In this document: one piece after another, positions 11,276 to 43,829 of the stretch
Layout: each line of letters begins with the position of its first letter
Position numbering within the stretch: the first letter of the stretch is position 1
Notes under the pieces: model-generated
The model's input: only the letters and a program-made list of their open reading frames with translations
What the model was told of the DNA's origin: nothing
Databases searched by the model: none
Translations under genes and position numbers: made by a program
Assembly: GCF_000010665.1 (NCBI RefSeq)
Contig: NC_012796.1
Span: 124,001-188,000, forward strand
Direction: 5' to 3'
Origin: Solidesulfovibrio magneticus RS-1
GTDB lineage: Bacteria > Desulfobacterota > Desulfovibrionia > Desulfovibrionales > Desulfovibrionaceae
DNA: 64,000 bases

Positions 11276-11308
11276 AAAAACTGTAATTATTTCAATGGGC
11301 TGCTGGCA

Positions 11309-11352
11309 TGGCATTCAAGAGGTCGTGGGTTCGATTCCCTCCAGCTCCACCA
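11309..11352 (+). repeat. tRNA-Ala(GGC) 3' half, att-like scar
   Basis: Forty-four nucleotides match positions 33-76 of a class I tRNA: anticodon loop TGGCATT (anticodon GGC), stem strand TCAAG, variable loop AGGTC, T-loop TTCGATT, and acceptor strand CAGCTCC-ACCA. U70 of the alanine identity pair is present. No 5' half precedes it: the upstream bases do not pair to make the anticodon stem, so it is not a functional tRNA. Tyrosine recombinases often recombine at this part of a tRNA gene and leave such 3' fragments. Confidence 0.85.
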
Positions 11353-11365
11353 CGAAGCATGCCAA

Positions 11366-16111: not shown

Positions 16112-16140
16112 TAGACAGCGTTGGGCCGCGAGCCTATATG
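16112..16140 (+). promoter_or_regulatory. Sigma70-type promoter of S RNA copy 1
   Basis: -35 TAGACA (16112-16117), 17-bp spacer, -10 TATATG (16135-16140). The hexamers and spacer length are kept in all three S copies while the spacer bases differ, which supports selection for promoter function. Confidence 0.75.
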
Positions 16141-16146
16141 TTAGTC

Positions 16147-16390: not shown

Positions 16391-16598
16391 GCATCAGGAG
16401 GGCTGAAGGAATATCCGGATGTCGGTCTGGGATGGACTTTCGGACATCTCGGGTGCGTGGGCTGCGAAAATCCGACGACAAGCGGCGTCAGCAGGCCGGG
16501 CTACTCCAGGTTGCGAACGATCTGGGCGGTAGCCAGCGCTGAAATCTAGCCCAACAGCCACGCTGGGCCTCTCCTTCGTCTTATGAGTCAGACGTGCG

Positions 16599-16934
16599 CT
16601 ACACCGGGATCAGCATCAATCCGGCGTCGTTCTTCTCGATCCGAAATTTCTGCCCTTCCTCGAACTCGATTCCAGCAAGCATGTTAGCGGTCAGCACGAT
16701 CTTCCTGCCGCGATAAACCGGGGAGCTGCTTCTGGTCCGGGTCGAAGCGCCAGCAATTTCCAGGTATTCCTTTTTTTCCTGCATGAGCTTGAGCAGATGA
16801 TTCTTCAAAGTCGGTTTCGACTGAATGCCAAGCTCGGCCATGATTTGGGCTTCATTGCTGCCAGCCTTAATAAGGCCGTAAAGCTTTTCCCCGTCATATT
16901 TGGCTTCGATCTTTTGGCCTTTTGCGATAGGCAT
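16599..16934 (-). CDS. AbrB-like DNA-binding protein K, copy 1
   Basis: A 111-residue protein with a helix-turn-helix-like N-terminal half (AQIMAELGIQSKPTLKNHLLKL) and a C-terminal swapped-hairpin AbrB/SpoVT-like half (YRGRKIVLTANMLAGIEF, EGQKFRIEKNDAGLMLIPV). GGAGGT lies 6 nt before the ATG at 16934. The copy at 41924 differs at only a few residues (for example MQEKK here versus MNEKK). The promoter contains a 9-bp inverted repeat overlapping both the -10 and the Shine-Dalgarno sequence, which points to autoregulation. It is part of the 1.25-kb direct repeat. Targets other than itself are unknown. Confidence 0.8.
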   Translation of the reverse strand: MPIAKGQKIEAKYDGEKLYGLIKAGSNEAQIMAELGIQSKPTLKNHLLKLMQEKKEYLEIAGASTRTRSSSPVYRGRKIVLTANMLAGIEFEEGQKFRIEKNDAGLMLIPV

Positions 16935-21738: not shown

Positions 21739-23186
21739 CAGCGTGTTGAAAAACTCCGCCAAGTGACCGAGAATCCAGCCATCGCGGTTCCGGAGGTGAT
21801 CTGATGGGGCTTGGCCGTCAGGGTGATCAGCAGGGGACGATGTATCTGGCCTGGGATGAGATTCCTCGGTCTCGTGGGCACGCTTTTTACGATCGTCTCC
21901 AGCAGACTCTCCGGAAAGCCGCCTTCGATGGTTTCGCCGAGAAGCTGTGCAAGCCCTTCTATTCCGACAAGGGGCGTCCCTCCATTCCGCCTGGCCGGTA
22001 TTTTCGGATGCACCTCGTGGGGTATTTCGAGGGCATCGACAGCGAGCGCGGCATTGAGTGGCGCTGCGCCGATTCGCTTTCCCTCCGGGATTTTCTCCAG
22101 CTTTCGCCCAAGGAGTCTGTGCCGGATCATTCCTCGCTCAGTCGGACACGGTCCCGTCTGCCGCTGGCGACCCACCAAGAGGTTTTCACCTGGGTTCTCA
22201 AGCTGCTCAGCAAGGATGCCTTGGTCCTTGGAGGCCGCATTGGCGTGGACGCTTCGACCATGGAGGCCAACGCGGCGCTCAAAACCATCGTGCGCCGGGA
22301 CACGGGTGAGAGCTACCGCAAGATGCTCCTGCGCATGGCTAAGGAGAGCGGCATCGACTCTCCGACGGATGAGGATCTGGCTCGCATGGACCGCAAGCGC
22401 GTCGGCAAGACGCTTTCGAACAAGGACTGGCAGTCGCAGGTCGATCCCGAGGCGAAGATCGCCAAGATGAAGGATGGCCGAACGCATCTGGCGTACAAGC
22501 CGGAGCACGCGGTGGACCTGGACACCGGCGCGGTCGTGGCGGTCGAGGTGCATGAAGCGGACAAGGGGGACACTTCGACTCTGCAAAAGACGCTGAAAGC
22601 CGCTCAAGAAAGTTTGCGACGGGTCACTTCCACACCGCCATGCCCGGACGATCCTGCGGAACTGGTCGCGGACAAGGGCTATTTCTCCCGGGATGTCCTC
22701 AAAGACCTGGACGGAGGGCCATGGCGGACGAGAATCGCCGAACCCAAGCGCAACGGCCTGAACTCCTGGCGTGGCGATCATGAGGCGCGGCGCGCCGTGT
22801 ACAACAACCGAATCCGGATATCGTCGATGGTCGGGAAGGCCATGGGAAAACAGCGGACGGAACTGGTCGAAAGAAGCTTCGAGCATACGCTGGACCGGTC
22901 TGGCGGTATGCGCCGGGTCTGGCTCCGGGGACGGGAGAACATCCAGAAACGGTATCTGCTCCATGTGGCCGGTTTCAATCTCGGCCTGCTGATGCGGGTC
23001 AAGACCGGCCATGGCACCCCCAGGGGCTGGGCCAGTGCCTGGCTTGCGCTCATTTGGCCCAATCAGCATCCCTCAATGGCCTATTTGGCCATCGTCATGG
23101 TGGTCGAAGGACGATGCTGTGGAATCATGCCCATCGCCGTCATCTGCGGGGGAGAATAGCCGGAAACAGCTTTTTGCAACGGCCTG
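21739..23186 (+). mobile_element. IS1182-type insertion sequence, copy B (1448 bp)
   Basis: It has the same ends as copies A and C: CAGCGTGTTG at 21739 and ...GGCCTG at 23186. It is flanked by TTAG direct repeats (21735-21738 and 23187-23190). It lies between the proline-rich gene and the large secreted proteins, in opposite orientation to copies A and C. Confidence 0.93.
21804..23159 (+). CDS. IS1182-family DDE transposase, copy B
   Basis: 451 residues, full length, with the same probable DDE residues (D149, D290, E356) as the other copies. It differs from copies A and C at two positions near residues 134-139: LKLLSKDALVLGG here versus LKVLSKDGLVLGG. The frame is intact and a Shine-Dalgarno sequence (GGAGGTGATCTG) precedes the ATG, so it is probably functional. 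Confidence 0.92.
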   Translation: MGLGRQGDQQGTMYLAWDEIPRSRGHAFYDRLQQTLRKAAFDGFAEKLCKPFYSDKGRPSIPPGRYFRMHLVGYFEGIDSERGIEWRCADSLSLRDFLQLSPKESVPDHSSLSRTRSRLPLATHQEVFTWVLKLLSKDALVLGGRIGVDASTMEANAALKTIVRRDTGESYRKMLLRMAKESGIDSPTDEDLARMDRKRVGKTLSNKDWQSQVDPEAKIAKMKDGRTHLAYKPEHAVDLDTGAVVAVEVHEADKGDTSTLQKTLKAAQESLRRVTSTPPCPDDPAELVADKGYFSRDVLKDLDGGPWRTRIAEPKRNGLNSWRGDHEARRAVYNNRIRISSMVGKAMGKQRTELVERSFEHTLDRSGGMRRVWLRGRENIQKRYLLHVAGFNLGLLMRVKTGHGTPRGWASAWLALIWPNQHPSMAYLAIVMVVEGRCCGIMPIAVICGGE

Positions 23187-23249: not shown

Positions 23250-24944
23250 TCATTGGAGCAGAAGGAGGCTCGGCAATGAAGCACTGGCTGAGCCGAAGCT
23301 GAAAAAACCATTGGTGGCGTTGTCACTGGTGTAGACGGCTAGGTTTTGTGTCCCTTCCGGAATTTCCTGCCCGTAAAGGTAATATTTGTTTAGGCTTGAA
23401 TAGTCAGCCGTTGTTCCGTCCGGATAAGTAACGGTCATATACTGCTTCCTCAAGGAAGTCATGGCTGCCTTTTGAGCAGTCGTAAAATAATTTGCGGCAA
23501 TGTTGCAGTTTAACTGTGCAAATGTGGTGGCGTAATGGAAATTGTTTTCTCCGTCGAGCATCCCATAGATCGCGGAGAAGTTATCGACCGTGGCCTTGAC
23601 TTGGGCAAGAGTGGCTTCAGACGGAGCCGTATCGACAATAAGGCTACGCAACGCCTCAGATATTCTTGTCCTGGCCAAAACAATGTTTTCACTGGGATTG
23701 GCATAGAGGTTTAACTTTTGCACGCTAGTCAATGCATTCATTTTGGCAGCACCAGCGTCGGAAATGTAGCCAAAACTGCTGTCGCAGAGTACCTTGCCTA
23801 TTGTCGCTGTCATTTGTTCATCGATACTGTAGCCAGGGTGTCCGATTGCTGGTGCGTCTTTCATATAGAATGAACCAAAATATGTGCCGTGCCGTTCGGG
23901 ACAAAAATAAACATCAGAATCAACTGATCCAGCATACCACGAATAAAGGTCCCCCGCATAGGTCATCATGGCCACCACAACATCGCTTGGCAGGCCCTGA
24001 AGCTTTGTCCTGACATCAACTTCTGACTTGTCCGGCCAAGAGTTGAACCCTTTGCCGACCATGGCATCAATATATGCTTTTTGGCTTGTGCTCAACGAAC
24101 GGTATATATTGGCATAAGTGATGGCCCGTTCATAGCTAATTTGCCCATCAAGAAGATATAATTCTCGACTAGCCGCCTTCACTGCCGTCAGATTCAAACC
24201 AGTAGCACCCGTTGGCTTCGCTCCGTCGATAAGGCGTCGAAATGCCTGCATCAGTGGGTAGCGCTTCCACGCATAGAGATTGATATTGTCCACCTGGTTT
24301 TGCGCCAGGTTCTTTAGTGATGCGATTTGTGTATCGTTCAAGATATACAAAATATTACAGGAAACCCTGGTCAGGAAACTCGTGTTATGTCCCATGTTGT
24401 CCGGATCATTGTCGCGCAAGTACTGGAATCCCCAATAATCGGCCACCTTGCCGGGTGGAAAAAAAGATTGGGCACCCAACTTGCCGGTGATCATGCCGAA
24501 TCCGGCAAAAGCGATAGTCGTGCCCTGGGCCCCATCACTTAAAGCCTGGACGATATTAAACGGAGAGGTGCCCGTCACGATGATGGAGTACGCTGTGGCG
24601 CTCCCAGAGACGTTATTCGCGGCATCTCTTGCGAAAGCGTACAAGAGCTTATAGCCTGGGCTCGCAAAAGTGTAACTCGCAGGAGGCGTAGCGCTCCAGG
24701 AGCAACTTCCGCTATCGTTGGACTCAGAAATACAATAGCTTGAGACGCCGGTGTTGTCGGTAGCGGACAGTGCCACCTGGATGGTCAGGCTGGTGGAAGT
24801 CATTGGCATACTAAAGGCGGTGATAATCGGACCCTCGGAATCGGTACTTAATTTTTGGAGATTCAAAGGCGAGTTTGCAGCGATGGCCGCCACAGCAGCT
24901 ATCATGGTCAACGCATTAATGATCGAGATTATAAGAGCTTTCAT
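23250..24944 (-). CDS. Large secreted protein with Ig-like domain and LTxxQ-like motifs
   Basis: 564 residues with a signal peptide (LIISIINALTMIAAVAAIAA). Residues ~35-125 look like a bacterial Ig-like domain (EGPIITAFSMPMTSTSL, YAFARDAANNVSG). The remaining ~430 residues match the neighbouring 627-residue protein: PPGKVADYWGFQYLRDNDPD, MGHNTSFLT, YFCPERHGTYFG. Spy/CpxP-type LTxxQ-like motifs recur (LNDTQIASL, LSTSQKAYI, LTSVQKLNL, FTTAQKAAM). AAGGAA lies 9 nt before the ATG at 24944. It follows the 627-aa gene by 48 bp, so they are probably cotranscribed. A periplasmic chaperone or stress-sensing role is inferred from the motifs and the adjacent Cpx-like system. Confidence 0.8.
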   Translation of the reverse strand: MKALIISIINALTMIAAVAAIAANSPLNLQKLSTDSEGPIITAFSMPMTSTSLTIQVALSATDNTGVSSYCISESNDSGSCSWSATPPASYTFASPGYKLLYAFARDAANNVSGSATAYSIIVTGTSPFNIVQALSDGAQGTTIAFAGFGMITGKLGAQSFFPPGKVADYWGFQYLRDNDPDNMGHNTSFLTRVSCNILYILNDTQIASLKNLAQNQVDNINLYAWKRYPLMQAFRRLIDGAKPTGATGLNLTAVKAASRELYLLDGQISYERAITYANIYRSLSTSQKAYIDAMVGKGFNSWPDKSEVDVRTKLQGLPSDVVVAMMTYAGDLYSWYAGSVDSDVYFCPERHGTYFGSFYMKDAPAIGHPGYSIDEQMTATIGKVLCDSSFGYISDAGAAKMNALTSVQKLNLYANPSENIVLARTRISEALRSLIVDTAPSEATLAQVKATVDNFSAIYGMLDGENNFHYATTFAQLNCNIAANYFTTAQKAAMTSLRKQYMTVTYPDGTTADYSSLNKYYLYGQEIPEGTQNLAVYTSDNATNGFFSFGSASASLPSLLLLQ

Positions 24945-24992: not shown

Positions 24993-26876
24993 TCACCTGA
25001 CGCCAAAAAGGAAGTCGGTGTTATCGATGCGCGGCATAGGAATTGGTTCAGAATACAAAAACGGTCCCTTGGGATCGGAAGGATTTGAAGGACGTAGCCT
25101 TGACAGGCTTGCCTTCTGTTGGTTGGTAAGGGTTTTTGCTATGGAGGCGAACGTCGTTGCATACAGGTAGGAGATCTCTCCATCTATTTCTCCATACTTC
25201 CTTGAGAGTGCACGGACTTTCTCCCAATTGGCAGAACCACACCGCTCAAAATCTCGCAATTGGGTCGCAATTTCTCGACGTATCCTGACAATATCATGTA
25301 AAAGTTGGCGTTGCTCATTCACCGTATCTGTTATGAATTTTTGCTGCGTGCCAGTCAGCATGGACAAGAAGGATTCTCCCCGATCAGCTGTGAGTCCGGT
25401 GCTGATGGAGAAATTGGGCTTGCCCATGGCCGGCGCGGTTTTGAGGCCGAACCCACCGAAATACATTCCGTGGCGTTCCGGACAAAAATATATGTCAGCG
25501 TCCAGAGACCCCGCATGCCAAGCAAACATCTCGCTGGCATAGGTCATCACCGCCACATGGTTCACATGCGACATGCTCCTCTTGTCAAGCGGCGAACCCA
25601 CTTCAGGCCAGGATCGAGAATCACCAAATTTCAACCGCGCCAAGGCGTTCCTTTGCGGCGCATTGAGTTCGCATAGAATTCGCCCCATGACCTTTGCCCG
25701 ACCGTATGCCAAGGCACCGTCCAATTCGTACAGGTCGGCCGAGGCCCGCTTTACGGCGTCTCGGTCCAGGCCCTTGGATCCGGCCGGGATATTCCCCTCG
25801 AGATTGCGGCGAAAGGCATGGATCAAGGGGAATCGTTTTTCTGCGAATTGCCGGATGCCGGCTTCTTGCTCCCGGGCCAAGGCCACTAGTTGCGCCCGCT
25901 GGCTATCGCTGAGAATGGTGAGCGTATTGTCGGCGATCTTAGTGAGAAATGATGTATTATGTCCTTTGTCTCCAGAATCTATATCGCGCATATACTGAAA
26001 ACCAAAGTAGTCCGACACTTTTCCGGGGGGAAGAAATGTATCTGCGCGAAAATCCCCTGTGATAAAAGCCAGGGCGTTGAAGGCAATAGTGTCTCGCTGG
26101 GCTTGATCAGAGAGTGCCTGTTCGATAGAGTAGTCCCCATTTGTGGCGCTCATCCTTTGCACTTGCCTGGAGAGAGGCTCCACCGGTCTTTCACGCCGGC
26201 TCGGGGCCAGGGTAGGACTAGAACGGCTGTCTTGAAGGTCACCTTGCCTGCCTCGCGCCTGCCCGGACGGATCTGGCTTTTCCAATCCGTTTTTCCCTGG
26301 AGCCCTGGGCTGCAGGGGGCGTGCCGCCAAGCCTTGAGGCGTCTCCACACATATGGCATCGACCTTGCCCTCGGGTGTCGCATGCAGCACCTGGTCACCG
26401 GCCTTCTTGCCCAGACAATCCTGAAAGGCCCTGGGAGGCGGCCCTTGTTGCTGTCTCGCCTCCGTTTGGGGTGGGGGTGCGAGAAGAGGCTCTGCAGATG
26501 CGTTGCGCTGCTGCTGGGGCAAGGACGGGAAAGGACGGCTGTCGTCTTGAAGCGCGTCCTGTTGCCTACCCTCCCGTTGCTCAGGCGAGGACCGCATTTC
26601 CAAGCCTACATCGCTCGTGGAGGGTGACTGAAGGGGACGTGCCGCCAGGCCTTGTGGCGTTTCTACACATGTGGCATCGACTTTGCCCTCAGGGGTGTTG
26701 TGCAGCACCTTATCGCCGGCATTCTTGCCTAAACAGTCTTGCAGAGCCTGAGGTGGCGGACCTTGCTGCAGTCTCGCGTTTGTCTTTCGTTGCGGCTCTT
26801 CGCCTGCCCAGAGAAGGCAAGGCCCAAAAGAGAGCATGGCTAGAAGTAGTATGTATTTTGTTAAAGTGTTGTTCAT
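24993..26876 (-). CDS. Large secreted protein with two Cys-motif repeats and LTxxQ-like motifs
   Basis: 627 residues; signal peptide MNNTLTKYILLLAMLSFGPC with cleavage near LLWAGE. Two tandem repeats in the first ~200 residues each read PPP-A--DCLGK-AGD followed by TPEGKVDA-CVETPQGLAARPL. The C-terminal ~400 residues match the 564-aa neighbour, with LTxxQ-like motifs LSDSQRAQL, LNAPQRNAL, LTGTQQKFI and LTNQQKASL. AGGAGGAG precedes the ATG at 26876. It is divergent from the Cpx-like regulator across a 278-bp region with paired GTTAA boxes. A related Cys motif occurs in the sensor kinase. Periplasmic stress role inferred. Confidence 0.8.
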   Translation of the reverse strand: MNNTLTKYILLLAMLSFGPCLLWAGEEPQRKTNARLQQGPPPQALQDCLGKNAGDKVLHNTPEGKVDATCVETPQGLAARPLQSPSTSDVGLEMRSSPEQREGRQQDALQDDSRPFPSLPQQQRNASAEPLLAPPPQTEARQQQGPPPRAFQDCLGKKAGDQVLHATPEGKVDAICVETPQGLAARPLQPRAPGKNGLEKPDPSGQARGRQGDLQDSRSSPTLAPSRRERPVEPLSRQVQRMSATNGDYSIEQALSDQAQRDTIAFNALAFITGDFRADTFLPPGKVSDYFGFQYMRDIDSGDKGHNTSFLTKIADNTLTILSDSQRAQLVALAREQEAGIRQFAEKRFPLIHAFRRNLEGNIPAGSKGLDRDAVKRASADLYELDGALAYGRAKVMGRILCELNAPQRNALARLKFGDSRSWPEVGSPLDKRSMSHVNHVAVMTYASEMFAWHAGSLDADIYFCPERHGMYFGGFGLKTAPAMGKPNFSISTGLTADRGESFLSMLTGTQQKFITDTVNEQRQLLHDIVRIRREIATQLRDFERCGSANWEKVRALSRKYGEIDGEISYLYATTFASIAKTLTNQQKASLSRLRPSNPSDPKGPFLYSEPIPMPRIDNTDFLFGVR

Positions 26877-27154: not shown

Positions 27155-27850
27155 ATGAACAGCCTCCTCTTGATTGATGACGACATGGAGTTGTGCGAAT
27201 TGCTTGGCGACTACCTGCACGGCGAGGGGTTTGACACTGAATCGGTCCACAACCCCATGGTCGGGGTGACAAGAGCAGTGTCCGGCCAACATGACCTCGT
27301 CGTGCTGGACGTCATGATGCCTGAGCTGAATGGATTTGAGGTTCTGCGACGCATACGGGCCGCATCGCAGATCCCTGTACTCATGCTCACCGCAAGAGGG
27401 GAGGATGTCGATCGCATCGTTGGCCTGGAGATTGGTGCTGACGACTACCTCCCCAAGCCGTTCAACTCGCGCGAACTCGTAGCAAGAATCCGGGCGATTC
27501 TGCGCCGGACCGAGACGGGGGAGCCCACTCCTAGCAAAGCAGGCGAATCCATTTCCATTAGCGATGTAGTGATTAATGTCGGCGGAAGGAGTGTCCTGTG
27601 TAATGGGAAGCCTTTAGATCTCACATCCATCGAATATTCGATTTTGGAAGTACTGATGAGAATGGCTGGTAAGGTAGTGAGCCGAGAGGAACTCGCGGAG
27701 AAGGCAATGGGTCGAAAGCATTCAGCTTACGAGCGCAGTCTTGATGTTCATATTTGTAGTCTGCGCAAGAAGCTTGGAACGCATTCTCTTTATGGTGAAC
27801 GGATCAAGACCGTTCGCAATATGGGCTATCTGTATGTTCTGTCGACTTGA
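27155..27850 (+). CDS. OmpR-family response regulator, CpxR-like
   Basis: 231 residues: receiver domain with acidic pocket (IDDDMELCELL), phosphoacceptor D52 (LVVLDVMMPELNG), conserved K in ADDYLPKPFNSRELVARIRA, and a C-terminal winged helix (LTSIEYSILEVLMRMAGKVVSREEL, ending IKTVRNMGYLYV). It resembles E. coli CpxR closely across its length. It is followed by its kinase with a 30-bp gap. It probably activates the divergent secreted-protein genes through the GTTAA boxes and may autoregulate. Confidence 0.93.
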   Translation: MNSLLLIDDDMELCELLGDYLHGEGFDTESVHNPMVGVTRAVSGQHDLVVLDVMMPELNGFEVLRRIRAASQIPVLMLTARGEDVDRIVGLEIGADDYLPKPFNSRELVARIRAILRRTETGEPTPSKAGESISISDVVINVGGRSVLCNGKPLDLTSIEYSILEVLMRMAGKVVSREELAEKAMGRKHSAYERSLDVHICSLRKKLGTHSLYGERIKTVRNMGYLYVLST

Positions 27851-27880
27851 CTCTTATATGATGCGGCGTCTGTGGCTCCT

Positions 27881-29617
27881 ATGAAAGTCAGATCGCGATC
27901 TCTTTATGTAAAAATATTTCTCTGGTTTTGGCTAATGATGGTGCTGGTTGGCACAATCCTGTTTATTGCCGCCGTACAAGGCCAGCTTGCCCGCAACCAG
28001 GAAACCTCTCGGACGCAGGCAGAAGAACGTCGTAGCCAACTTTCCGACATGCTCTCTTTTTACGGGGAAACTTCCATACGCCTCGTGGACCAGGCCGGCC
28101 CCCAGGCCCTTGAGGTGTACGGCGAGCAATTGGCGCGGACCGCAGGCGTGCGCCCCTTTTTCTTCATCGAACCCGACCGTGCCTGGGTACAAGGCCAAGC
28201 GCCCCCGGATGTTTTGGAATTGGCTAGGCGCGCTTGGCTGTCGGGTAAAACGGAATATGCCGAGCATCAAGACGAGTTCTTGTTGGCCAAGCCCCTGCGG
28301 GACGCCGTGAAAGGAATGTATGTCGTTGTTGGCAAAACCCAACTGGACCCGGCCGGGGGCGCGCCCGCGCCGCGCAGGCCGAGGCCCGAAGCCGTAGAGG
28401 CCTGCGCCGGAGCGAACCCAGGTGACGCCTGTTCCTTCTATTCACGTCATGGCCTTGAGCATGGGCAATGCCGTGAATGGACGGACCCTCGGTTGATTTG
28501 CGTACCCGAGATACTGGCCCTTGGGGGTGGGACACCCAATGTGCCACCCCTCCATTCCTCCGCCATCGGAGATATTCCAGGGAGCCGGGAGCCTCTTGCC
28601 CAGGTCGCGCCGTCCCGGGAAACCAAGTCGGGCGACGCAAGAAAAGCCACACACTGGCTTAGGTCACTGACTCCTTGGAGTGAAGGGAGCCTGGACAGTT
28701 ATAGCGATAGGCTTGGTAAGGTCTTGGCCATTGTGTTTATCGTCAGCGGCGCATCATGTGGATTGCTTTCGTGGCGCATAACGAGGCCCTTGCGAAGGCT
28801 TCGCCTGGTTGCCCAGCGACTGGCCGCCGGCGACCTCACCGTTCGCGTCGACCACGCGTTGAATCAACGTGGGGACGAAATCGCGGATCTGGGGCTTGAC
28901 ATCGATCGGATGGCAAGCCGTATTGAGGGACTCGTAAAGACCCAGAAGCGACTCTTACGCGACATCTCCCATGAGTTGCGATCCCCCCTAGCCCGGCTCA
29001 ATGTGGCACTAGAATTGGCCAGGCAAAGCGCCGGACCTAGTGCCGTCACCTATTTGGACAGAATGGAGCGGGAATCAAGCAGGCTAAATGAGTTGATCGG
29101 GCAATTGCTGACACTGGCCAGGCTGGAAGGAGAACAACCGAATATTACCTATGAAGAATTCGACTTCGTGGAATTATTGAAGGAAATAGCGCGAGATGTG
29201 GGCTTCGAAGCGAATAGCCAGGGGCGGTGGATAGGAACGGAGATCTGTGGGGCGCTCCGCATCACCGCCAATCGTGAACTGCTGCGTCAGGCCATCGAAA
29301 ATGTGGTGCGAAACGCTATCAGGCATACAGCTCCCCAGACTGGCGTAATAGTTCGCTTGGCCAAAGAGTCAGAATCCGGGAGAGCAGTGGCAGCATTGGA
29401 AGTGCAGGATCATGGCCAAGGTGTCCCTGAAGAAGAATTGACCAATATTTTTCTCCCTTTTTATCGAGTGGCCAGCGATACGACGGATACAAAGGGTGGT
29501 GCTGGTGTTGGGCTGGCCATATCCGACAGGGCCGTCCGTCTTCATGGTGGACGCATATCTGCTATGAATGCCTGCGATGGAGGGCTGATTGTCAGAATGA
29601 TACTGCCATTGAATTAG
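27881..29617 (+). CDS. CpxA-like sensor histidine kinase with Cys-containing sensor region
   Basis: About 578 residues. Two membrane helices (near residues 10-30 and ~285-305) flank a periplasmic region of ~250 residues. This contains RPRPEAVEACAGANPGD, ACSFYSRHG and LICVPE, a four-cysteine motif similar to the repeats in the secreted 627-aa protein. HAMP, HisKA (RDISHELRSPLARLNVALEL) and HATPase (NVVRNAIRHTA, GQGVPEEEL, GGAGVGLAI) follow. ATG 27881 is taken; the frame also opens at a GTG nine bases earlier. It forms a two-component pair with the upstream regulator. The larger-than-usual sensor suggests recognition of the Cys-motif proteins or thiol/metal stress, which is inference. Confidence 0.9.
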   Translation: MKVRSRSLYVKIFLWFWLMMVLVGTILFIAAVQGQLARNQETSRTQAEERRSQLSDMLSFYGETSIRLVDQAGPQALEVYGEQLARTAGVRPFFFIEPDRAWVQGQAPPDVLELARRAWLSGKTEYAEHQDEFLLAKPLRDAVKGMYVVVGKTQLDPAGGAPAPRRPRPEAVEACAGANPGDACSFYSRHGLEHGQCREWTDPRLICVPEILALGGGTPNVPPLHSSAIGDIPGSREPLAQVAPSRETKSGDARKATHWLRSLTPWSEGSLDSYSDRLGKVLAIVFIVSGASCGLLSWRITRPLRRLRLVAQRLAAGDLTVRVDHALNQRGDEIADLGLDIDRMASRIEGLVKTQKRLLRDISHELRSPLARLNVALELARQSAGPSAVTYLDRMERESSRLNELIGQLLTLARLEGEQPNITYEEFDFVELLKEIARDVGFEANSQGRWIGTEICGALRITANRELLRQAIENVVRNAIRHTAPQTGVIVRLAKESESGRAVAALEVQDHGQGVPEEELTNIFLPFYRVASDTTDTKGGAGVGLAISDRAVRLHGGRISAMNACDGGLIVRMILPLN

Positions 29618-30101: not shown

Positions 30102-33100
30102 ATGCAAGATATCCAAAGCGAAGAATTGCTGCAAAAGTTTAGCGGCCTTCCGTACGATGTCGATTTGGATAGAGACGAGCTCCTGCATGAGATTTTCGAA
30201 GCGACAGTCAGACAGTTTTCCGAAAAGATAGCAGTTGAAAGCGGTTCTATAGAAGTAACGTATCATGAGCTGAATCGTAGGGCCAACCAGCTGGCGCATT
30301 ATCTGCGAGATATTGGCGTCGGCCATGAAGACAGGGTGGCCTTGCTTTTGCCTAAGACTGAATTCGTTTACGTAGCAATGCTGGCCGTGCTCAAGGCCGG
30401 TGCTGCTTATGTTCCCCTGGACCAGGCCTATCCTCCTGACCGCGTTGGGTTTATTTTGGATGATTGCGCCGCCAAGTTATGCATTACGGATGCGGCGCTA
30501 TTTGAGGCCCTGGGCCAAGAGGTCAGGGGCACACCGGTTTTCTTGGCTGACCGCGACGGCCCGGGACTTTCGGGACAACCGGACACGCCCCTGAGCCGGG
30601 AGCAGACTGGGCTTGGCCGGCAAAGCTTGTGCTACGTGATCTACACCTCCGGAACCACCGGCCGCCCCAAGGGCTGTCTGATCGAACACCGCAACATCTG
30701 CAGCCTAGTGCGCTCCGAGGCCAAGGTCTACGGCATCCACGCAGAGGACCGCGTCTTTCAATGCGCGTCCACGGCCTTCGACGCCTCCCTGGAAGAAATC
30801 TGGATGGCGTTCCTGCACGGAGCCACCCTGGTGGCCGGCACGAAGGAGATCATGCGCACCGGGCCCATGCTGGGCCAAGCCTTGAGCCAACGCGGCGTGA
30901 CCGTGCTGTCCTGCGTGCCCACGCTTCTTTCCATGATCGAGGGCGACATCGACACCATGCGTATCCTCATCGTGGGTGGCGAGGCCTGCCCCAAAGACCT
31001 CGCCGCACGCTGGCACCGACCCACCCGGACCATATTCAATTCCTACGGCCCCACGGAAACCACCGTGGCGGCCACCTACGGCGTGCTCGTCCCCAACCGG
31101 CCGGTGACCATAGGCCAAGCGTTGCCCAATTACCGCTGTTACATTCTGGACGAAAAGCTCGACCCCGTGCCCCCGGGAGCCGAGGGGGAACTTTTCATCG
31201 GCGGTCCGGGCGTGGCCCGGGGATATTTGAACCGCGACGACCTTACGCGTGACCGCTTCATCACGACGGAGCGGGTCACCGGCGAACCGGTGCGCCTGTA
31301 CCGCACCGGGGACTTGGCCCGCTTCACCGAAGACGGGGATATCGACTATCTGGGCCGGGCCGACGATCAGGTCAAAGTCCGGGGCTACCGGATTGAGCTT
31401 ACCGAGATCGAGGCCGTGCTCATGCAATGCCCGGGAGTACAGTGCGCCGCAGTGACCATGTGGCGTGAAACCGGAGCGTTGGCCGCTTACGTGGTGACCC
31501 GCCAGGGCACGAGCCTGAACCTGGGCTTTATGCGGGAGACTGTGGCCAAGCGCTTGCCCCCCTACATGATGCCCGCGACCCTGGACGTGATCGCCGAGTT
31601 GCCCCTGCTGACCAGCGGCAAGGTCAACCGCAAGGCCCTGCCGGCCCCGGTGGACCCCTTCGAGGATCGGGACCGCGAGGTGACCGCCCCGCGCAGTCAA
31701 GTCGAGCGCGACGTGGCCGGAGTGTGGGAGGAGGTGTTCAAGCGCAAGGGCCTTTCGGTGACGGATGACTTCTTTCTGGATCTGGGCGGACATTCGCTGT
31801 TTGCGGCGGTCATGGTCTCCAAGCTGCGCCATGTGCCCGGGTTCGCCGGCGTATCCGTCGGCGACGTCTACCAGCACCCGACCATAGAATCTCTGGCCAC
31901 GATCCGCGACCAAGACACAACGGCACCGAAACCGGCTCCAGGCCAAGCCTTCCACGAAATACCCCCCTCGCGCCATTTCGCCTGCGCGTGTGCCCAGCTC
32001 CTGGCCGTGGTTGTGCTGGCCGGGGTCTATGCCTGGCAGTGGTTGGGGCCGTTTTTCACCTCGGCGTATCTGATCTTGGATCACTGGGAACTTGGGCCAT
32101 CCCTGCTGGCGGGCTTGCTAGTCTACGCTGTGTCGTATCCCCTGCTGTTGGCCGTGGTAGTACTGGCAAAATGGCTGTTTCTTGGGCGCATCAAGGCCGG
32201 CCAGCATCCGTTGTGGGGGTGGTATTATTTTCGGTTTTGGTTCGTACGCCAACTGTCCCGGGCCGTGGCCGTGAAATATCTCGCGGGCTCGCCCCTGCTC
32301 TGCCTGTACTACCGCCTGCTCGGAGCGAGGGTGGGCAAGGATGTCTTTTTCGGCACCGCGGGGCTTATGACCTTCGACCTCTTGACCGTGGGCGACGGCA
32401 CGAGCATCGGCTACGACAGCAGCGTGGACGGATCCTGGGTGGAGGACGGTCTACTGCACTTGGCGCCCGTAACCATCGGCAAGAACTGCTTCGTGGGCAA
32501 CCGTTCGGTGCTCGGTCCCAGCGCCGTCATGCAGGACAATTCCGGCTTGGCGGACCTGTCCATGTTGCCGGAAGGCGGCGTGATTCCTTCCGGGAGCTTG
32601 TATAGCGGTACGCCGGCTGTGTCGGCGGGGACTTTCGAGGACGTCTCTCCCCCCAGAACCTGGTCCTTCGGCTATGGGTTGCTTTTCGTTCTGGGAGTGT
32701 TTCTGTTCCCCCTGCTCGTGGAAGGTGCGATCTTTCCAGGTTTGATGTTCATGGAGATACTTGACAACATTGATCAATATTACTGGTGGACGCTCTACGC
32801 GCCTGTGGTTGGAATATCGTTTATTGTGTTGATATGCTTTGAGATCGCCTTTTTCAAATGGCTGTTTCTTCCCCGTATCAAGGAAGGGCGCTACCCGTTG
32901 CGCGGATGGTTCTACTGGCGCAAATGGTTTCTCACGCAGCTTATGCAGGTGAGCTTGGAAATACTGGGCACGCTTTATTCCACGCTTTACCTCAAGCCCT
33001 GGTTTTTCGTGCTCGGGGCACGCCTGGGCAAGGGGTCGGAGATATCCACGGTACGCCATGTGAACCCCGAATTCCTGGTGGCCGGCAAGGCCTGCTTCCT

Positions 33101-34052
33101 GGCAGACGACGTCATGATCGGCGCGCCCAGCGTACGCGGTGGTTCTATTAGCATCGGCTATGTGCACGTGGGCGACAGAACTTTCGTGGGAAACAGCGCC
33201 CTGGTGCCCGGGGGGATGGTCCTGGGCGACGGGGCCTTGATCGGCTGCCTGTCCACCACGCCGGTCGTCAACCCCGTACCCACGGGAACCTCTTGGTTCG
33301 GGTCTCCTGCCATCCATTTGCCAAGGCGGCAGGAGGCCGAGCGCTTTTCGGAAAAACAAACCTATTCCCCGCCATGGCATCTGGTGCTGTTGCGCTACAT
33401 CATCGAGTTCTTCCGCGTCACCCTGCCGCTGACGCTTTTCGTGCTGCTGGCCACCATGATCATGAACGTGGTGGACATGTACCAGGACTGGCTGCCCTTG
33501 TGGCTCCAGATCGCGTCGCTGCCGTTTCTGTACCTGGCCGCAGGAGTGGTGGCCCTGCTGTTGGTAGTCGGGCTCAAATGGCTGGTGGTTGGCCGTTACC
33601 GCGAAAGTAACCATCCACTCTGGTGCGGCTTTGTCTGGCGTACAGAGCTGGTCACAGGAGTATATGAGAATTTTGGCACCCTGTTCTTGCTCGAACTTTT
33701 ACGGGGGACGCCGTTTATTCGCTGGCCTATGCGTATGCTTGGCATGCGGGTGGGACCGCGCTGCTACATCGATTCCACCTGGTTCACGGAGTTCGATCTT
33801 GTGGAGATCGGTGAGGAGGCAGCCTTGAACGAGGACGCCAACCTGCAGACCCACCTGTTCGAGGACCGGGTCATGAAAGTGGGCAAGGTGGTCATTGGGA
33901 AACGCTGCGCAGTGGGCATGAAGGCCACGGTTCTTTACAACACCTGCCTTGAGGACAATGTGTCCCTTGGGGATTTGTCCCTTTTGATGAAGGGTGAGAC
34001 CCTGCCTCAGGGCACCAAATGGCAGGGAGCGCCGGCGAGACGTGTTGGTTGA
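30102..34052 (+). CDS. Poly-lysine-synthetase-like NRPS (A-T plus three membrane/LbH units)
   Basis: 1316 residues, matching the size and plan of epsilon-poly-L-lysine synthetase (Pls, ~1319). An adenylation domain (~30-530) shows YTSGTTGRPKG, FNSYGPTETT and YRTGDLARF. The carrier domain has the phosphopantetheine serine S565 in DLGGHSLF. Then three tandem units follow, each with membrane helices plus a left-handed beta-helix-like region (near residues 740-860, 970-1070 and 1220-1310), as in the TIGR02353 terminal domain. Aligning to GrsA by eye gives the specificity residues D-A-E-S-I-G-S-V-A-K, one change from the bacitracin lysine code as I remember it. It probably links amino acids into a homopolymer at the membrane. 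A phosphopantetheinyl transferase follows. The exact substrate is inferred. Confidence 0.88.
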   Translation: MQDIQSEELLQKFSGLPYDVDLDRDELLHEIFEATVRQFSEKIAVESGSIEVTYHELNRRANQLAHYLRDIGVGHEDRVALLLPKTEFVYVAMLAVLKAGAAYVPLDQAYPPDRVGFILDDCAAKLCITDAALFEALGQEVRGTPVFLADRDGPGLSGQPDTPLSREQTGLGRQSLCYVIYTSGTTGRPKGCLIEHRNICSLVRSEAKVYGIHAEDRVFQCASTAFDASLEEIWMAFLHGATLVAGTKEIMRTGPMLGQALSQRGVTVLSCVPTLLSMIEGDIDTMRILIVGGEACPKDLAARWHRPTRTIFNSYGPTETTVAATYGVLVPNRPVTIGQALPNYRCYILDEKLDPVPPGAEGELFIGGPGVARGYLNRDDLTRDRFITTERVTGEPVRLYRTGDLARFTEDGDIDYLGRADDQVKVRGYRIELTEIEAVLMQCPGVQCAAVTMWRETGALAAYVVTRQGTSLNLGFMRETVAKRLPPYMMPATLDVIAELPLLTSGKVNRKALPAPVDPFEDRDREVTAPRSQVERDVAGVWEEVFKRKGLSVTDDFFLDLGGHSLFAAVMVSKLRHVPGFAGVSVGDVYQHPTIESLATIRDQDTTAPKPAPGQAFHEIPPSRHFACACAQLLAVVVLAGVYAWQWLGPFFTSAYLILDHWELGPSLLAGLLVYAVSYPLLLAVVVLAKWLFLGRIKAGQHPLWGWYYFRFWFVRQLSRAVAVKYLAGSPLLCLYYRLLGARVGKDVFFGTAGLMTFDLLTVGDGTSIGYDSSVDGSWVEDGLLHLAPVTIGKNCFVGNRSVLGPSAVMQDNSGLADLSMLPEGGVIPSGSLYSGTPAVSAGTFEDVSPPRTWSFGYGLLFVLGVFLFPLLVEGAIFPGLMFMEILDNIDQYYWWTLYAPVVGISFIVLICFEIAFFKWLFLPRIKEGRYPLRGWFYWRKWFLTQLMQVSLEILGTLYSTLYLKPWFFVLGARLGKGSEISTVRHVNPEFLVAGKACFLADDVMIGAPSVRGGSISIGYVHVGDRTFVGNSALVPGGMVLGDGALIGCLSTTPVVNPVPTGTSWFGSPAIHLPRRQEAERFSEKQTYSPPWHLVLLRYIIEFFRVTLPLTLFVLLATMIMNVVDMYQDWLPLWLQIASLPFLYLAAGVVALLLVVGLKWLVVGRYRESNHPLWCGFVWRTELVTGVYENFGTLFLLELLRGTPFIRWPMRMLGMRVGPRCYIDSTWFTEFDLVEIGEEAALNEDANLQTHLFEDRVMKVGKVVIGKRCAVGMKATVLYNTCLEDNVSLGDLSLLMKGETLPQGTKWQGAPARRVG

Positions 34053-34215
34053 AAGGGCGTCTGAAGTCTGGACTGCGCGTGTGAATACGCATTGGATTGG
34101 TTTGGAAAGCCTCTTGCCTGTTAAACGAAAGCGCGCACGGGCAGAAGGTCGTTCCTGCCCTTGACCGCTGGTGGGACTGGAAACGCATGCCAAATCATAT
34201 GCACTCATTTGGTCG

Positions 34216-34881
34216 ATGTCTGGTCGGTTGATTCTGGTCTGGGCGCAGGCCCGGGAACCGTGGCCAGACGGATGCATGGTCGCCGCGCTGAACCAATTGC
34301 CCCCCTGGATGGGTCGGGAAATGGCGCGCTGGCGCAATCCGATGGATCGCCAAACCCGGGTCTTAGGGCGCTTGCTTGTCCGCTTGGCTCTGGAAACCCT
34401 GGGCGTGGCCAACGGAGACTTGGCAGGGTGGCGCTTGGATCAGTTTGGACGCCCCTATCTGTCAGGTTGCGCAGCGGATTGCAGCGTGAGCCACTCCGGC
34501 GGACTTGTCGCGGCAGCGGTGAGCTTGCCTGGTCGGGTGGGTGTGGACGTGGAGGTCTTGGCACCACTCCCGATTGAAGCGCTCGATGCGGCTTTCTGCC
34601 CTGAAGAAATGTCAGATATTCGGTCGGCCGAGAATCAATCTAGGCGGGCACTTGAATTATGGACGGGCAAGGAGGCGACTCTCAAGGCCGACGGGCGTGG
34701 GATGTCCCTGGATCCGAGCCTCATCGACGCCCGAGGGGAGTCCATTCGTCTGGGCGAGGAAGTCTGGAGGATATTTCATCCTGAATTGACCCCAGGCTGG
34801 CTGTGCGCCCTGGTCACGAACCAGTTAACGCCAGTGGTGAATATTATAAGTACGGACCTAGCCGTTTTGCTCGGCGGATGA
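34216..34881 (+). CDS. Sfp-type 4'-phosphopantetheinyl transferase
   Basis: About 221 residues from ATG 34216 (MSGRLILVWAQA); a GTG at 34171 would add 15 residues of unlikely sequence. Core motifs are present: RPYLSG...SVSHSGGLVAAAVS, GVDVEVL, and ELWTGKEATLKADGRG, which contains the W-x-x-KEA signature. It converts the apo carrier domain of NRPS-type enzymes to the active form. It is 160 bp downstream of the synthetase on the same strand, and most likely activates S565 of that enzyme. The two genes make a self-contained biosynthetic cassette. Confidence 0.9.
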   Translation: MSGRLILVWAQAREPWPDGCMVAALNQLPPWMGREMARWRNPMDRQTRVLGRLLVRLALETLGVANGDLAGWRLDQFGRPYLSGCAADCSVSHSGGLVAAAVSLPGRVGVDVEVLAPLPIEALDAAFCPEEMSDIRSAENQSRRALELWTGKEATLKADGRGMSLDPSLIDARGESIRLGEEVWRIFHPELTPGWLCALVTNQLTPVVNIISTDLAVLLGG

Positions 34882-35100: not shown

Positions 35101-35163
35101 TGGCTCCCCAAATTTTATGCTAAAAATTTAATATTTTAAATATGTTATGATTTTCTGTTGGCA

Positions 35164-35207
35164 TGGCATTCAAGAGGTCGTGGGTTCGATTCCCTCCAGC
35201 TCCACCA
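35164..35207 (+). repeat. tRNA-Ala(GGC) 3' half, att-like scar (second copy)
   Basis: It is identical over all 44 nt (tRNA positions 33-76) to the fragment at 11309, including anticodon GGC, variable loop AGGTC and the CCA end. Only about 5 bp before it are shared with the other copy, so the identity begins sharply at the anticodon loop. Confidence 0.85.
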
Positions 35208-35220
35208 CGAAGCATGCCAA

Positions 35221-35251: not shown

Positions 35252-35940
35252 CTTTGCCTAAGCGCCAACGCGCGCCAACACTAGGGTTTGGCGGGTATGT
35301 GCCAGGGCAGAACCATTTGCCAGCCCACCTGTTAGACCAAGAAACCATTCCCCGGTCGCTTGAATTTTTTTCAAGAGGTCGCCCCCCCTCCGCCTCTTTC
35401 GCTCCTGTCAAAAATAATCCCCTACTTTATGCGTGGTTGCACAAGAAAATAAACCACGGTCGCTTGGGCGGTTTTCAAGCGATCCCCCCCATTTTGGACT
35501 TTTGGACTTTCCGGGTGCATCCCCTGAAAATTTTCTGGCCCCGTTTCCTGCGGGCGGAAACTTTGGCTGACCCTGCCCGAGAACGTGCCGCAGCAACTGG
35601 CCTATGAAGGCACAGGGGCTGGGATTTTACCGGGGCGTTTGGTTTTCCTGGTCCTGTCCTGTGTCGCCCACTGGACCAAATGTCACCCTATGCGCCGGCA
35701 ATTTCTAGATAAGCTACTAAATTAATGAAACTTCTCTGCAGGTGGCAAATGTGACATTTCAAATATGGTCGCTGCAAAAATCAGAAGCAAAATCTCTGGT
35801 TTGGTACCTCACCGGCGGCATCGAAGACTGACCCTGCCCGAGAAAGTGCTGCAGGAACTGGCCTATTGAGGCATAGGGGCTGGGATTTTACCGGGGCTGG
35901 TTGGTTTCCTGGGCCTGCTCCGGCCTCGTCCCCAGTCGTC
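35252..35940 (+). repeat. Backbone repeat T-L-D-L' and start of G
   Basis: The first ~450 bp match 11397-11860. D (35700-35830, TTCTAGATAAGC..., then TGTGACATTTCAAATATGG) and L' (35830-35930) match 40957-41165. TCGCTTG/CAAGCGA inverted repeats lie at 35460-35482. No gene is supported; a 149-codon plus-strand frame crosses the tRNA scar and terminator. Confidence 0.75.
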
Positions 35941-40755: not shown

Positions 40756-41439
40756 TTCATGTGAGTAAGAGATATTTCGGGATGTCCCGAGCGGGGGCTG
40801 CTCACAGTTTTCTGCTTGGACGAGTGCTGGTGCAGGAAAAGCCCCAGGAACTGGCCTATGGAGTCACAGGGGCTGGGATTTTACAGGGGCCGGTTGGTCT
40901 TCCTGGTCCTGTCCCGTGTCGCCCACTGGACCAAATGTCACACCATGCGCCGGCGATTTCTAGATAAGCAACTTAATTAATGAAACTTATCTGCTGGTGG
41001 CAAATGTGACATTTCAAATATGGCCGCTGTAAAAATCAGATGCGAAATCTCTGGTTCGGTACCTCGCCGTCGGCATCGAAGACTGACCCTGCCCGAGAAA
41101 GTGCCGCAGGAATTGGCCTATTGAGTCACAGGGGCTGGGAAATAACCGGGGCCTGTTGGTCTCCTGGTCCTGCCCCATCCTCTCCCCCGGTCGCCGGCCT
41201 GGACACCCCCTGTATGCGCGCCCTAGCCCCCCTTCCTGGGCCGTTCCCCTGGTCCTGGCCCCTTTGTCCCCCGGTCCCTCCCCCGCTCCAGGGTGGGCTT
41301 CCTAGGCTGAATGTCCGATTTCACTTGGGCTTGGGACATCGGCAGGAAATGCGCACAAAAATCTCGGCGAACTTACTGACCTTTTTCTCGACTGCCTGAA
41401 TTCACTGCAGTTATTTCTAATCGCCCTCGAAAAAAGCAC

Positions 41440-41468
41440 TAGACAGAGTTGCAGCCCGGCCCTATATC
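41440..41468 (+). promoter_or_regulatory. Sigma70-type promoter of S RNA copy 2
   Basis: -35 TAGACA (41440-41445), 17-bp spacer, -10 TATATC (41463-41468). The -10 is weaker than in copies 1 and 3. Confidence 0.7.
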
Positions 41469-41474
41469 TTAAGC

Positions 41475-41717
41475 GTGTCCTTTGTGAAGGTTGTGAGCAA
41501 CCCTAGCGGAGGCGATGCCATTGGGTGAATCAATTGTCGGAGAGTTTTCCTCGCAGTAGAGCACTTGAAGGCCAGTAAAAAATGAAATCTGGCAAGCTGC
41601 ATGTGTGGCAAACACTAGCTCTACGTTCATAGACGAGGCGCAATCGTCAACCCATAAGTCTTTCTAAGCAACGTAATATTACTGGCCCCGGCTTGTGTAG
41701 TCGGGGCCTTTCTTTTT
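41475..41717 (+). ncRNA. Candidate small RNA S, copy 2
   Basis: The layout is the same as copy 1. The terminator stem is GGCCCCGGC (41684-41692) / GTCGGGGCC (41700-41708), with one G-U pair where copy 1 has A-U and copy 3 has G-C. The internal 14-codon frame reads MPLGESIVGEFSSQ here. The upstream overlapping short frame has lost its ATG (ATC), which argues that the RNA, not that peptide, is the conserved product. Confidence 0.62.
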
Positions 41718-41923
41718 GCATTGGGTGGGCTGAAGCGATTCCCGATGACCGGGCAGGATGGACTTTCGGACATTTTCGATGCGTGGGCTGTGAAAAATCA
41801 GACGACAAGCAGCGTCAGCAGGCCGGGCTACTCCAGTGCGAACGATCTGGGCGGTCGCCAGCTCTGAAATCTAGCCCAACAGCCGCGCTGGGCCTCTCCT
41901 TCGTCTTATGAGTCAGACGCGAG

Positions 41924-42259
41924 CTACACGGGGATCAGCATCAATCCGGCGTCGTTCTTCTCGATCCGAAATTTCTGCCCTTCCTCGAACTCGATTCCAG
42001 CAAGCATGTTAGCGGTCAGCACGATCTTCCTGCCGCGATAAACCGGGGAGCTGCTTCTGGTCCTGGTCGAAGAGCCAGCAATTTCCAAGTATTCCTTTTT
42101 TTCATTCATGAGCTTGAGCAGATGATTCTTCAAAGTCGGTTTCGACTGAATGCCAAGCTCGGCCATGATTTGGGCTTCATTGCTGCCAGCCTTGATAAGG
42201 CCGTAAAGTTTTTCCCCGTCGTATTTTGCTTCGATCTTTTGGCCTTTGGCGATAGGCAT
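41924..42259 (-). CDS. AbrB-like DNA-binding protein K, copy 2
   Basis: 111 residues, differing from the copy at 16599 by a few substitutions (MNEKKEYLEIAGSS here). The HTH-like N-terminal half and AbrB-like C-terminal half are intact, as are promoter and operator. The IS1182-type copy C lies about 60 bp upstream of its promoter. Both copies being intact suggests they are retained, or that the duplication is recent. Confidence 0.8.
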   Translation of the reverse strand: MPIAKGQKIEAKYDGEKLYGLIKAGSNEAQIMAELGIQSKPTLKNHLLKLMNEKKEYLEIAGSSTRTRSSSPVYRGRKIVLTANMLAGIEFEEGQKFRIEKNDAGLMLIPV

Positions 42260-42381: not shown

Positions 42382-43829
42382 CAGGCCGTTGCAAAAAGCT
42401 GTTTCCGGCTATTCTCCCCCGCAGATGACGGCGATGGGCATGATTCCACAGCATCGTCCTTCGACCACCATGACGATGGCCAAATAGGCCATTGAGGGAT
42501 GCTGATTGGGCCAAATGAGCGCAAGCCAGGCACTGGCCCAGCCCCTGGGGGTGCCATGGCCGGTCTTGACCCGCATCAGCAGGCCGAGATTGAAACCGGC
42601 CACATGGAGCAGATACCGTTTCTGGATGTTCTCCCGTCCCCGGAGCCAGACCCGGCGCATACCGCCAGACCGGTCCAGCGTATGCTCGAAGCTTCTTTCG
42701 ACCAGTTCCGTCCGCTGTTTTCCCATGGCCTTCCCGACCATCGACGATATCCGGATTCGGTTGTTGTACACGGCGCGCCGCGCCTCATGATCGCCACGCC
42801 AGGAGTTCAGGCCGTTGCGCTTGGGTTCGGCGATTCTCGTCCGCCATGGCCCTCCGTCCAGGTCTTTGAGGACATCCCGGGAGAAATAGCCCTTGTCCGC
42901 GACCAGTTCCGCAGGATCGTCCGGGCATGGCGGTGTGGAAGTGACCCGTCGCAAACTTTCTTGAGCGGCTTTCAGCGTCTTTTGCAGAGTCGAAGTGTCC
43001 CCCTTGTCCGCTTCATGCACCTCGACCGCCACGACCGCGCCGGTGTCCAGGTCCACCGCGTGCTCCGGCTTGTACGCCAGATGCGTTCGGCCATCCTTCA
43101 TCTTGGCGATCTTCGCCTCGGGATCGACCTGCGACTGCCAGTCCTTGTTCGAAAGCGTCTTGCCGACGCGCTTGCGGTCCATGCGAGCCAGATCCTCATC
43201 CGTCGGAGAGTCGATGCCGCTCTCCTTAGCCATGCGCAGGAGCATCTTGCGGTAGCTCTCACCCGTGTCCCGGCGCACGATGGTTTTGAGCGCCGCGTTG
43301 GCCTCCATGGTCGAAGCGTCCACGCCAATGCGGCCTCCAAGGACCAAGCCATCCTTGCTGAGCACCTTGAGAACCCAGGTGAAAACCTCTTGGTGGGTCG
43401 CCAGCGGCAGACGGGACCGTGTCCGACTGAGCGAGGAATGATCCGGCACAGACTCCTTGGGCGAAAGCTGGAGAAAATCCCGGAGGGAAAGCGAATCGGC
43501 GCAGCGCCACTCAATGCCGCGCTCGCTGTCGATGCCCTCGAAATACCCCACGAGGTGCATCCGAAAATACCGGCCAGGCGGAATGGAGGGACGCCCCTTG
43601 TCGGAATAGAAGGGCTTGCACAGCTTCTCGGCGAAACCATCGAAGGCGGCTTTCCGGAGAGTCTGCTGGAGACGATCGTAAAAAGCGTGCCCACGAGACC
43701 GAGGAATCTCATCCCAGGCCAGATACATCGTCCCCTGCTGATCACCCTGACGGCCAAGCCCCATCAGATCACCTCCGGAACCGCGATGGCTGGATTCTCG
43801 GTCACTTGGCGGAGTTTTTCAACACGCTG
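42382..43829 (-). mobile_element. IS1182-type insertion sequence, copy C (1448 bp)
   Basis: It starts CAGGCCGTTG at 42382 and ends ...CACGCTG at 43829, flanked by TTAG direct repeats (42378-42381 and 43830-43833). It interrupts the backbone repeat at a position whose uninterrupted counterpart is near 17063-17066. Confidence 0.93.
42409..43764 (-). CDS. IS1182-family DDE transposase, copy C
   Basis: 451 residues, identical to copy A, with D149, D290 and E356 as probable catalytic residues. Intact frame and ribosome site. Identity with copy A implies that one gave rise to the other, or both came from a common source, very recently. Confidence 0.92.
   Translation of the reverse strand: MGLGRQGDQQGTMYLAWDEIPRSRGHAFYDRLQQTLRKAAFDGFAEKLCKPFYSDKGRPSIPPGRYFRMHLVGYFEGIDSERGIEWRCADSLSLRDFLQLSPKESVPDHSSLSRTRSRLPLATHQEVFTWVLKVLSKDGLVLGGRIGVDASTMEANAALKTIVRRDTGESYRKMLLRMAKESGIDSPTDEDLARMDRKRVGKTLSNKDWQSQVDPEAKIAKMKDGRTHLAYKPEHAVDLDTGAVVAVEVHEADKGDTSTLQKTLKAAQESLRRVTSTPPCPDDPAELVADKGYFSRDVLKDLDGGPWRTRIAEPKRNGLNSWRGDHEARRAVYNNRIRISSMVGKAMGKQRTELVERSFEHTLDRSGGMRRVWLRGRENIQKRYLLHVAGFNLGLLMRVKTGHGTPRGWASAWLALIWPNQHPSMAYLAIVMVVEGRCCGIMPIAVICGGE

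Follow-up and report, generated by a model that had tools for sequence, protein, structure and literature searches.

A Pls/PosA-family single-module synthetase with a lysine-type pocket on a tRNA-linked island of the sulfate reducer Solidesulfovibrio magneticus RS-1

We analyzed a stretch of 64,000 nucleotides from Solidesulfovibrio magneticus RS-1 (contig NC_012796.1, positions 124,001 to 188,000; hereafter the window, with contig positions marked C2), in which a nonribosomal peptide synthetase (NRPS) is followed by a 4'-phosphopantetheinyl transferase (PPTase). The NRPS is probably a Pls/PosA-family enzyme that makes a cationic homo-poly(amino acid), and its pocket is of the lysine type; it is predicted to produce either epsilon-poly-L-lysine or only a short oligomer of it. 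The sequence itself shows the domain order, the pocket residues, the carrier motif, three membrane units, the adjacent PPTase, and the location within an att-bounded segment. Both open reading frames (ORFs) were recovered with the positions, strand, and lengths proposed in an initial annotation (Table 1), and the host is, as also proposed, a sulfate reducer, its genome encoding dsrA (631.1 bits against a cut-off of 392.85). The enzyme family is already known and curated at NCBI; of interest here are the strict-anaerobe host and the island context.

The NRPS frame is full length and free of internal stops. Pfam placed AMP-binding at residues 32-376 and AMP-binding_C at 435-507, followed by PP-binding (Table 1) and hexapeptide-repeat matches; these were the only kinds of Pfam family on the protein, with no condensation or thioesterase domain. 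The condensation domain PF00668 had no match anywhere in the host genome, and PADLOC, which covers anti-phage defence, matched neither the NRPS nor the PPTase. The NCBIfam model TIGR02353 ("Pls/PosA family NRPS") covers residues 631-1312 with model positions 2-695 of 695 (E = 3.1e-186), and the carrier motif LGGHSL lines up with that of family members. A hydropathy scan marked six membrane segments, arranged pairwise, in the C-terminal part (624-651/666-699, 853-887/894-926, and 1099-1127/1133-1166), as well as residues 79-106 within the adenylation (A) domain, which we take to be soluble core and not a membrane segment. The three C-terminal units resemble one another, none of 200 shuffles reaching the score in any of six comparisons (three between the soluble parts and three between whole units). 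An AlphaFold2 model built from a seven-row alignment contains a helix hairpin and then a beta-helix three times over, and in a Foldseek search parts of this model hit hexapeptide acyltransferases and gamma-carbonic anhydrases, the same classes that were returned by a PDB sequence search with the NRPS. This C-terminal architecture agrees with the structural model of PosA given in PMC10522769. The single-module plan put forward initially, with an A domain, a carrier (thiolation, T) domain, and three membrane-bound units, is thus borne out by Pfam, TIGR02353, the six segments, and the unit similarity, and the three units are present in the sequence as well as in the structure model.

The specificity code of the A domain, read from an alignment of 28 family members, is DAESIGSVAK (D227, A228, E231, S270, I290, G292, S314, V322, A323, and K507), which reproduces the earlier reading. 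As a positive control, the same columns of two PosA-like rows (L072 and L078) read DMEHNGTVSK, the code that PMC10522769 gives for PosA. The NRPS has Asp at position 1 (D227) and Glu at position 3 (E231), which is the family rule according to the same paper. The first eight residues of the code are identical (8/8) to the BacB-M1-Lys signature DAESIGSV, printed as eight residues in Table 2 of PMC3207962; the code had been described as one change away from the bacitracin lysine code, which was, if anything, too cautious. For Pls (A-domain chain 7wew), a reading by eye of the printed alignment, which does not cover position 10, gives DAESIGTVV, and 7 of these 9 readable positions equal those of the NRPS. 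Position 2 is Ala (A228), the mark of a lysine-type pocket: Patel and Gulick (PMC10522769) associate Ala here with the lysine enzymes of the family and report that the PosA variant M218A uses lysine nearly ten-fold better, whereas they connect Met with ornithine, Phe with diaminopropionate/diaminobutyrate, Gly with beta-lysine, and Ser with an arginine case. The code therefore reads as that of a basic amino acid. Taken together, the BacB identity, the Pls agreement, and Ala at position 2 make lysine the best prediction for the substrate, and we infer it strongly.

In the mechanism that we propose, the neighboring PPTase would load the carrier serine, after which the A domain would activate L-lysine with ATP and attach it there. 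The three hexapeptide units, each anchored in the membrane, would pack as one roughly three-fold body and would repeatedly couple carrier-bound lysyl groups to a side-chain amine, either that of a free lysine or one on the chain being built. Because the membrane segments form a hairpin in each pair, the units are expected on the cytoplasmic side, together with the A and T domains. The isopeptide linkage and the iteration are assumed by analogy with the family.

The PPTase frame begins 119 bp past the NRPS stop, and its PF01648 match agrees with the transferase identified initially. It had also been called dedicated, a word that is only partly justified. In its favor are the lack of condensation domains in the genome and the presence of only two PF01648 matches, namely this PPTase and a 125-residue frame of AcpS size; against it, the genome has three PF00550 carriers, found in an 88-residue acyl-carrier-sized frame, in the NRPS, and in an ORF at C2 2173909 (L096). 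The latter ORF (529 residues) appears by eye to be a fusion of a carrier with an acetyltransferase-like part, and it adjoins an acyl-AMP-ligase-like ORF. The PPTase most likely serves the neighboring NRPS, but it may have a second client because of this third carrier-bearing ORF. We also compared 32 loci of the family, which are not a random sample: the plasmid loci are 14 fetched by choice from 40 listed of the 919 plasmid records that matched at 1e-50 (27 with at least 80% protein coverage, and including ordinary A domains). A PPTase stands beside the NRPS homolog in 4 of the 32 (the window, L043, L065, and L047), the one of L047 being counted from the annotation, since its extended ORF overlaps the NRPS and was missed by the script. 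In homologs on Sphingomonas, Rhizobium, and Shinella plasmids the PPTase lies directly downstream. The neighbors of homologs vary, with a PPTase in three plasmids (L043, L047, and L065) and a diaminobutyrate transaminase in two (L044 and L064).

The TIGR02353 cut-off was passed by the host genome alone among 59 relatives and again among 348 genomes of its class, two samples that overlap; in the genus (14 genomes) it again stood alone. Weak matches (E <= 0.001) occur in 43 of the 59 relatives, the host counted; the NRPS aside, they score 17-65 bits, where the cut-off is 423, and resemble hexapeptide proteins of the ordinary kind. In the phylum, 2 of 297 genomes passed, the host and G608, whose family member (L071, G608:C18) has the diaminopropionate/diaminobutyrate-like code DFECMGTVTK and belongs to another clade than the window NRPS. 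In the class of Sporomusa, 3 of 250 genomes matched at 1e-60 (2 over the cut-off), and in that of Legionella 9 of 369 matched (8 over the cut-off). A search for named relatives returned eight named loci, the host genome possibly being omitted from it. The code table and the tree comprise 28 of the 32 loci, leaving out L039 and L040 (partial), L061 (two frames), and L075 (G953:C1), a family member broken by one in-frame stop. In this tree, the window NRPS, with an end branch of 0.49, is placed as sister of the homologs from Sporomusa malonica and from G655, a genome of the same class, with support of 100/100. Vertical inheritance within the family or genus is unlikely, given that the host genome is the only one to pass in either sample, and because the nearest relatives found are those of Sporomusa's class, the gene was likely transferred between phyla, in one direction or the other. 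The Pls/PosA family is reported from many phyla in PMC10522769, the main text of which does not contain "Desulf", although its supplementary table may list the RS-1 protein. A search of the open-access literature, supplements excluded, gave no paper on a Pls/PosA-type gene in sulfate reducers among the matches listed.

Several points weigh against the assignment as a polylysine synthetase. The structure model is of only moderate confidence (mean predicted local distance difference test, pLDDT, 64.8; predicted template-modeling score, pTM, 0.62), and the NRPS differs from Pls at code positions 7 (S for T) and 9 (A for V). In the tree, which held no characterized full-length Pls, the NRPS stands apart from the sole actinobacterial Pls-like row (Kitasatospora, DAESIG code), whose own place is unsure with a long branch of 2.72. 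No polymer peptidase or exporter was recognized beside the cassette among the ORFs examined with Pfam, and polylysine is the product predicted from the family and the code. Codes can mislead, since that of PosA is also closest to the lysine code and predicted lysine-like, yet PosA prefers ornithine. This precedent favors an enzyme of the same kind that uses another basic monomer (ornithine, diaminobutyrate, beta-lysine, or arginine) and makes a different polycation, as do a Bdellovibrionales homolog that favored arginine among the substrates tested and the term degenerate that Patel and Gulick apply to the code (both in PMC10522769). We nevertheless consider a monomer other than lysine unlikely, as position 2 is Ala and not Met, Phe, Gly, or Ser, and the first eight residues equal the lysine signature.

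The cassette is part of a large region that differs from the surrounding chromosome. G008 is the congener with the closest flanking DNA, and against its main contig (first 113 kb) synteny is lost from C2 84,232 to 176,978 (window 52,978), or about 93 kb; the flanking blocks are 92-97% identical, whereas only scattered pieces of 0.4-1.9 kb match inside the break, at 77-92%. The guanine-plus-cytosine (GC) content of this stretch is 35-61% per 5 kb versus 62-70% in the flanks; it is 60% over the NRPS and PPTase. Five 20-kb stretches sampled elsewhere have 66-70%, except for one with 54%. A tRNA-Ala(GGC) gene (C2 84,112-84,187) lies on the left edge, and exact copies of its 3' end, 46-47 bp long, recur at C2 97,529, 120,908, 135,308, and 159,163. 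Both marks of a tRNA-associated island, direct repeats of the tRNA 3' end as bounds and a start at the tRNA gene, are thus present. The NRPS-PPTase cassette forms the right end of a 23.85-kb segment (window 11,308-35,163) between the last two copies. The sequence that follows the tRNA in G008 is also found after these tRNA 3'-end copies (87-93% over 75-223 nucleotides), and our interpretation is that several segments integrated at one tRNA gene to give an array. Its upstream, first segment (L091) encodes two integrases, and none was recognized in the 23.85-kb segment within the subset of its ORFs put through Pfam. G008 likewise holds non-syntenic DNA beside the same tRNA-Ala.

One insertion sequence (IS), with a DUF772 and DDE_Tnp_1 transposase, is present in three near-identical copies of 1448 bp (window 3331-4778, 21739-23186, and 42382-43829, here A, B, and C), each flanked by a different 4-bp target duplication (TTAC, TTAG, and CTAA). 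Copies B and C flank the cassette, with TTAG on both sides of B and CTAA on both sides of C, so that they were inserted separately and a composite transposon is ruled out. The mobile region named initially is therefore a tRNA-linked island and not an IS-bounded transposon. Other repeats were seen as well: families of 100-300 nucleotides, 62-100% identical, are spread over the island (window 16102-16811, 35632-35931, 40887-41717, and 41837-42136), and parts of window 44.1-64 kb have numerous short matches in every one of the 14 genus genomes. Elsewhere on the chromosome, a direct repeat of 2,447 bp (100% identical) occupies 4605372-4607818 and 4689726-4692172; according to PMC4287615, the magnetosome island of RS-1 spans 4607747-4689778 and has a 2.4-kb direct repeat on its flanks.

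The location in an IS-bearing, low-GC island, together with the 0 of 13 other genus genomes passing the family cut-off, could mean that the NRPS is a passenger gene, intact yet silent or useless in RS-1. We regard this as improbable, because the frame is full length without stops, the end branch of 0.49 has accumulated no disruption, and the PPTase has been retained alongside.

A response regulator and a sensor histidine kinase (Table 1) precede the NRPS on the same strand, with 485 bp between the end of the kinase and the start of the NRPS. Their best-ranked NCBIfam models are OmpR and CpxR for the regulator and CpxA for the kinase, in all cases below the cut-offs. Of the 13 other genus genomes, 10 match the DNA of the pair only in short pieces and 3 not at all, which suggests that the pair is a component of the island. 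On the basis of its position, we hypothesize that this CpxRA-like pair controls the NRPS. Two-component genes also lie beside the homologs of Sporomusa, a Streptomyces plasmid, and a Rhizobium plasmid. Strong matches to both partners within 3.5 kb were found in 4 of the 32 loci (the window, L033, L044, and L047), from which the search models had themselves been built; L071 gave weaker matches to both, four loci (L045, L062, L066, and L073) gave one partner only, and 23 gave none, the flanks being short at several loci (L071, L078, L039, L040, and others). A control for the pairing gave 0 of 544 positions in one genus. A conserved partnership of the pair with the family NRPS is only suggested by these counts. 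Two ORFs on the minus strand (23250-24944 and 24993-26876), both without Pfam match, have by eye signal-like N-termini and LTxxQ-like motifs, and the 627-residue one of the two has the motif CxGxx(A/P)GD in common with the kinase at 27872-29617. Together, these features hint at a Spy/CpxP-like sensing set.

The addition of one or a few lysines to a membrane acceptor, e.g., a lipid or envelope component, in place of free polymerization would suit the membrane-anchored, acyltransferase-related C-terminal part and the envelope-stress-like kinase upstream, but it is highly improbable considering that the products of characterized family members are free homopolymers (PMC10522769 and PMC8117764) and that TIGR02353 is matched over its whole length.

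Table 1 Features of the NRPS-PPTase locus and its surroundings (window coordinates).
Feature	Position	Strand	Basis
OmpR-type response regulator, possible regulator (by position)	27155..27850	+	Response_reg and Trans_reg_C
CpxA-like sensor histidine kinase, possible regulator (by position)	27872..29617	+	HAMP, HisKA, HATPase_c
Pls/PosA-family single-module NRPS, 1316 aa	30102..34052	+	ORF; TIGR02353 620.8 bits vs cut-off 423.1
Adenylation domain, residues 32-507	30195..31622	+	Pfam AMP-binding and AMP-binding_C; 28-member alignment
Carrier (thiolation) domain, residues 537-600	31710..31901	+	Pfam PP-binding; carrier serine S565 in LGGHSL
C-terminal polymerization part, residues 631-1312	31992..34037	+	Three units, each a membrane hairpin and a hexapeptide beta-helix
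4'-phosphopantetheinyl transferase, 236 aa	34171..34881	+	PF01648, E 2.1e-11
Left 46-bp tRNA-Ala(GGC) 3'-end copy, att-like	11308..11353 (C2 135,308)	+	Exact match; left bound of 23.85-kb segment
Right 46-bp tRNA-Ala(GGC) 3'-end copy, att-like	35163..35208 (C2 159,163)	+	Exact match; 282 bp past PPTase stop

The locus thus has a Pls/PosA-type enzyme common to Bacillota and Desulfobacterota on a tRNA-linked island, and a strict anaerobe is an unusual setting for this family. More speculatively, the CpxRA-like sensor, the synthetase, and its own PPTase could form a self-contained, horizontally moving polycation cassette with which the cell would produce polylysine when needed, as a coat, for defense, or for detachment, a reading that we put forward as doubtful. 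Were it true, we know of no earlier cationic homopolymer from a sulfate reducer. The role of the polymer would be directly testable in a Gram-negative strict anaerobe, because a gene-deletion method is published for D. magneticus RS-1 (PMC6210102). The interest of the locus lies in this anaerobic, genetically workable host, in which the natural roles of cationic homopolymers become approachable.

Among known systems, Pls (7WEW) has the same single A-T module with three tandem C-terminal units and six membrane segments (PMC8117764), and 7 of its 9 readable code residues are equal. The NRPS differs from it by two code changes (T to S and V to A), by the neighboring PPTase and CpxRA-like pair, and by its separation in the tree from the Pls-like row of Kitasatospora, the position of which is itself uncertain. 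BacB module 1 is part of an ordinary multimodular assembly line and not a homopolymer synthetase; it activates lysine and has the identical eight-residue signature DAESIGSV. PosA, the delta-poly-L-ornithine synthetase of Acinetobacter baumannii, shares the family model, the architecture, and a Gram-negative host, whereas its code is DMEHNGTVSK and it is encoded by a single-gene operon. The nearest named relative found is the Sporomusa malonica homolog (L033), with 52% identity over residues 5-1315, the code DAESIGSIVK, and adjoining two-component genes; unlike those of the window, these genes are divergent, and no PPTase neighbor was matched there, the PF01648 matches of that genome lying elsewhere.

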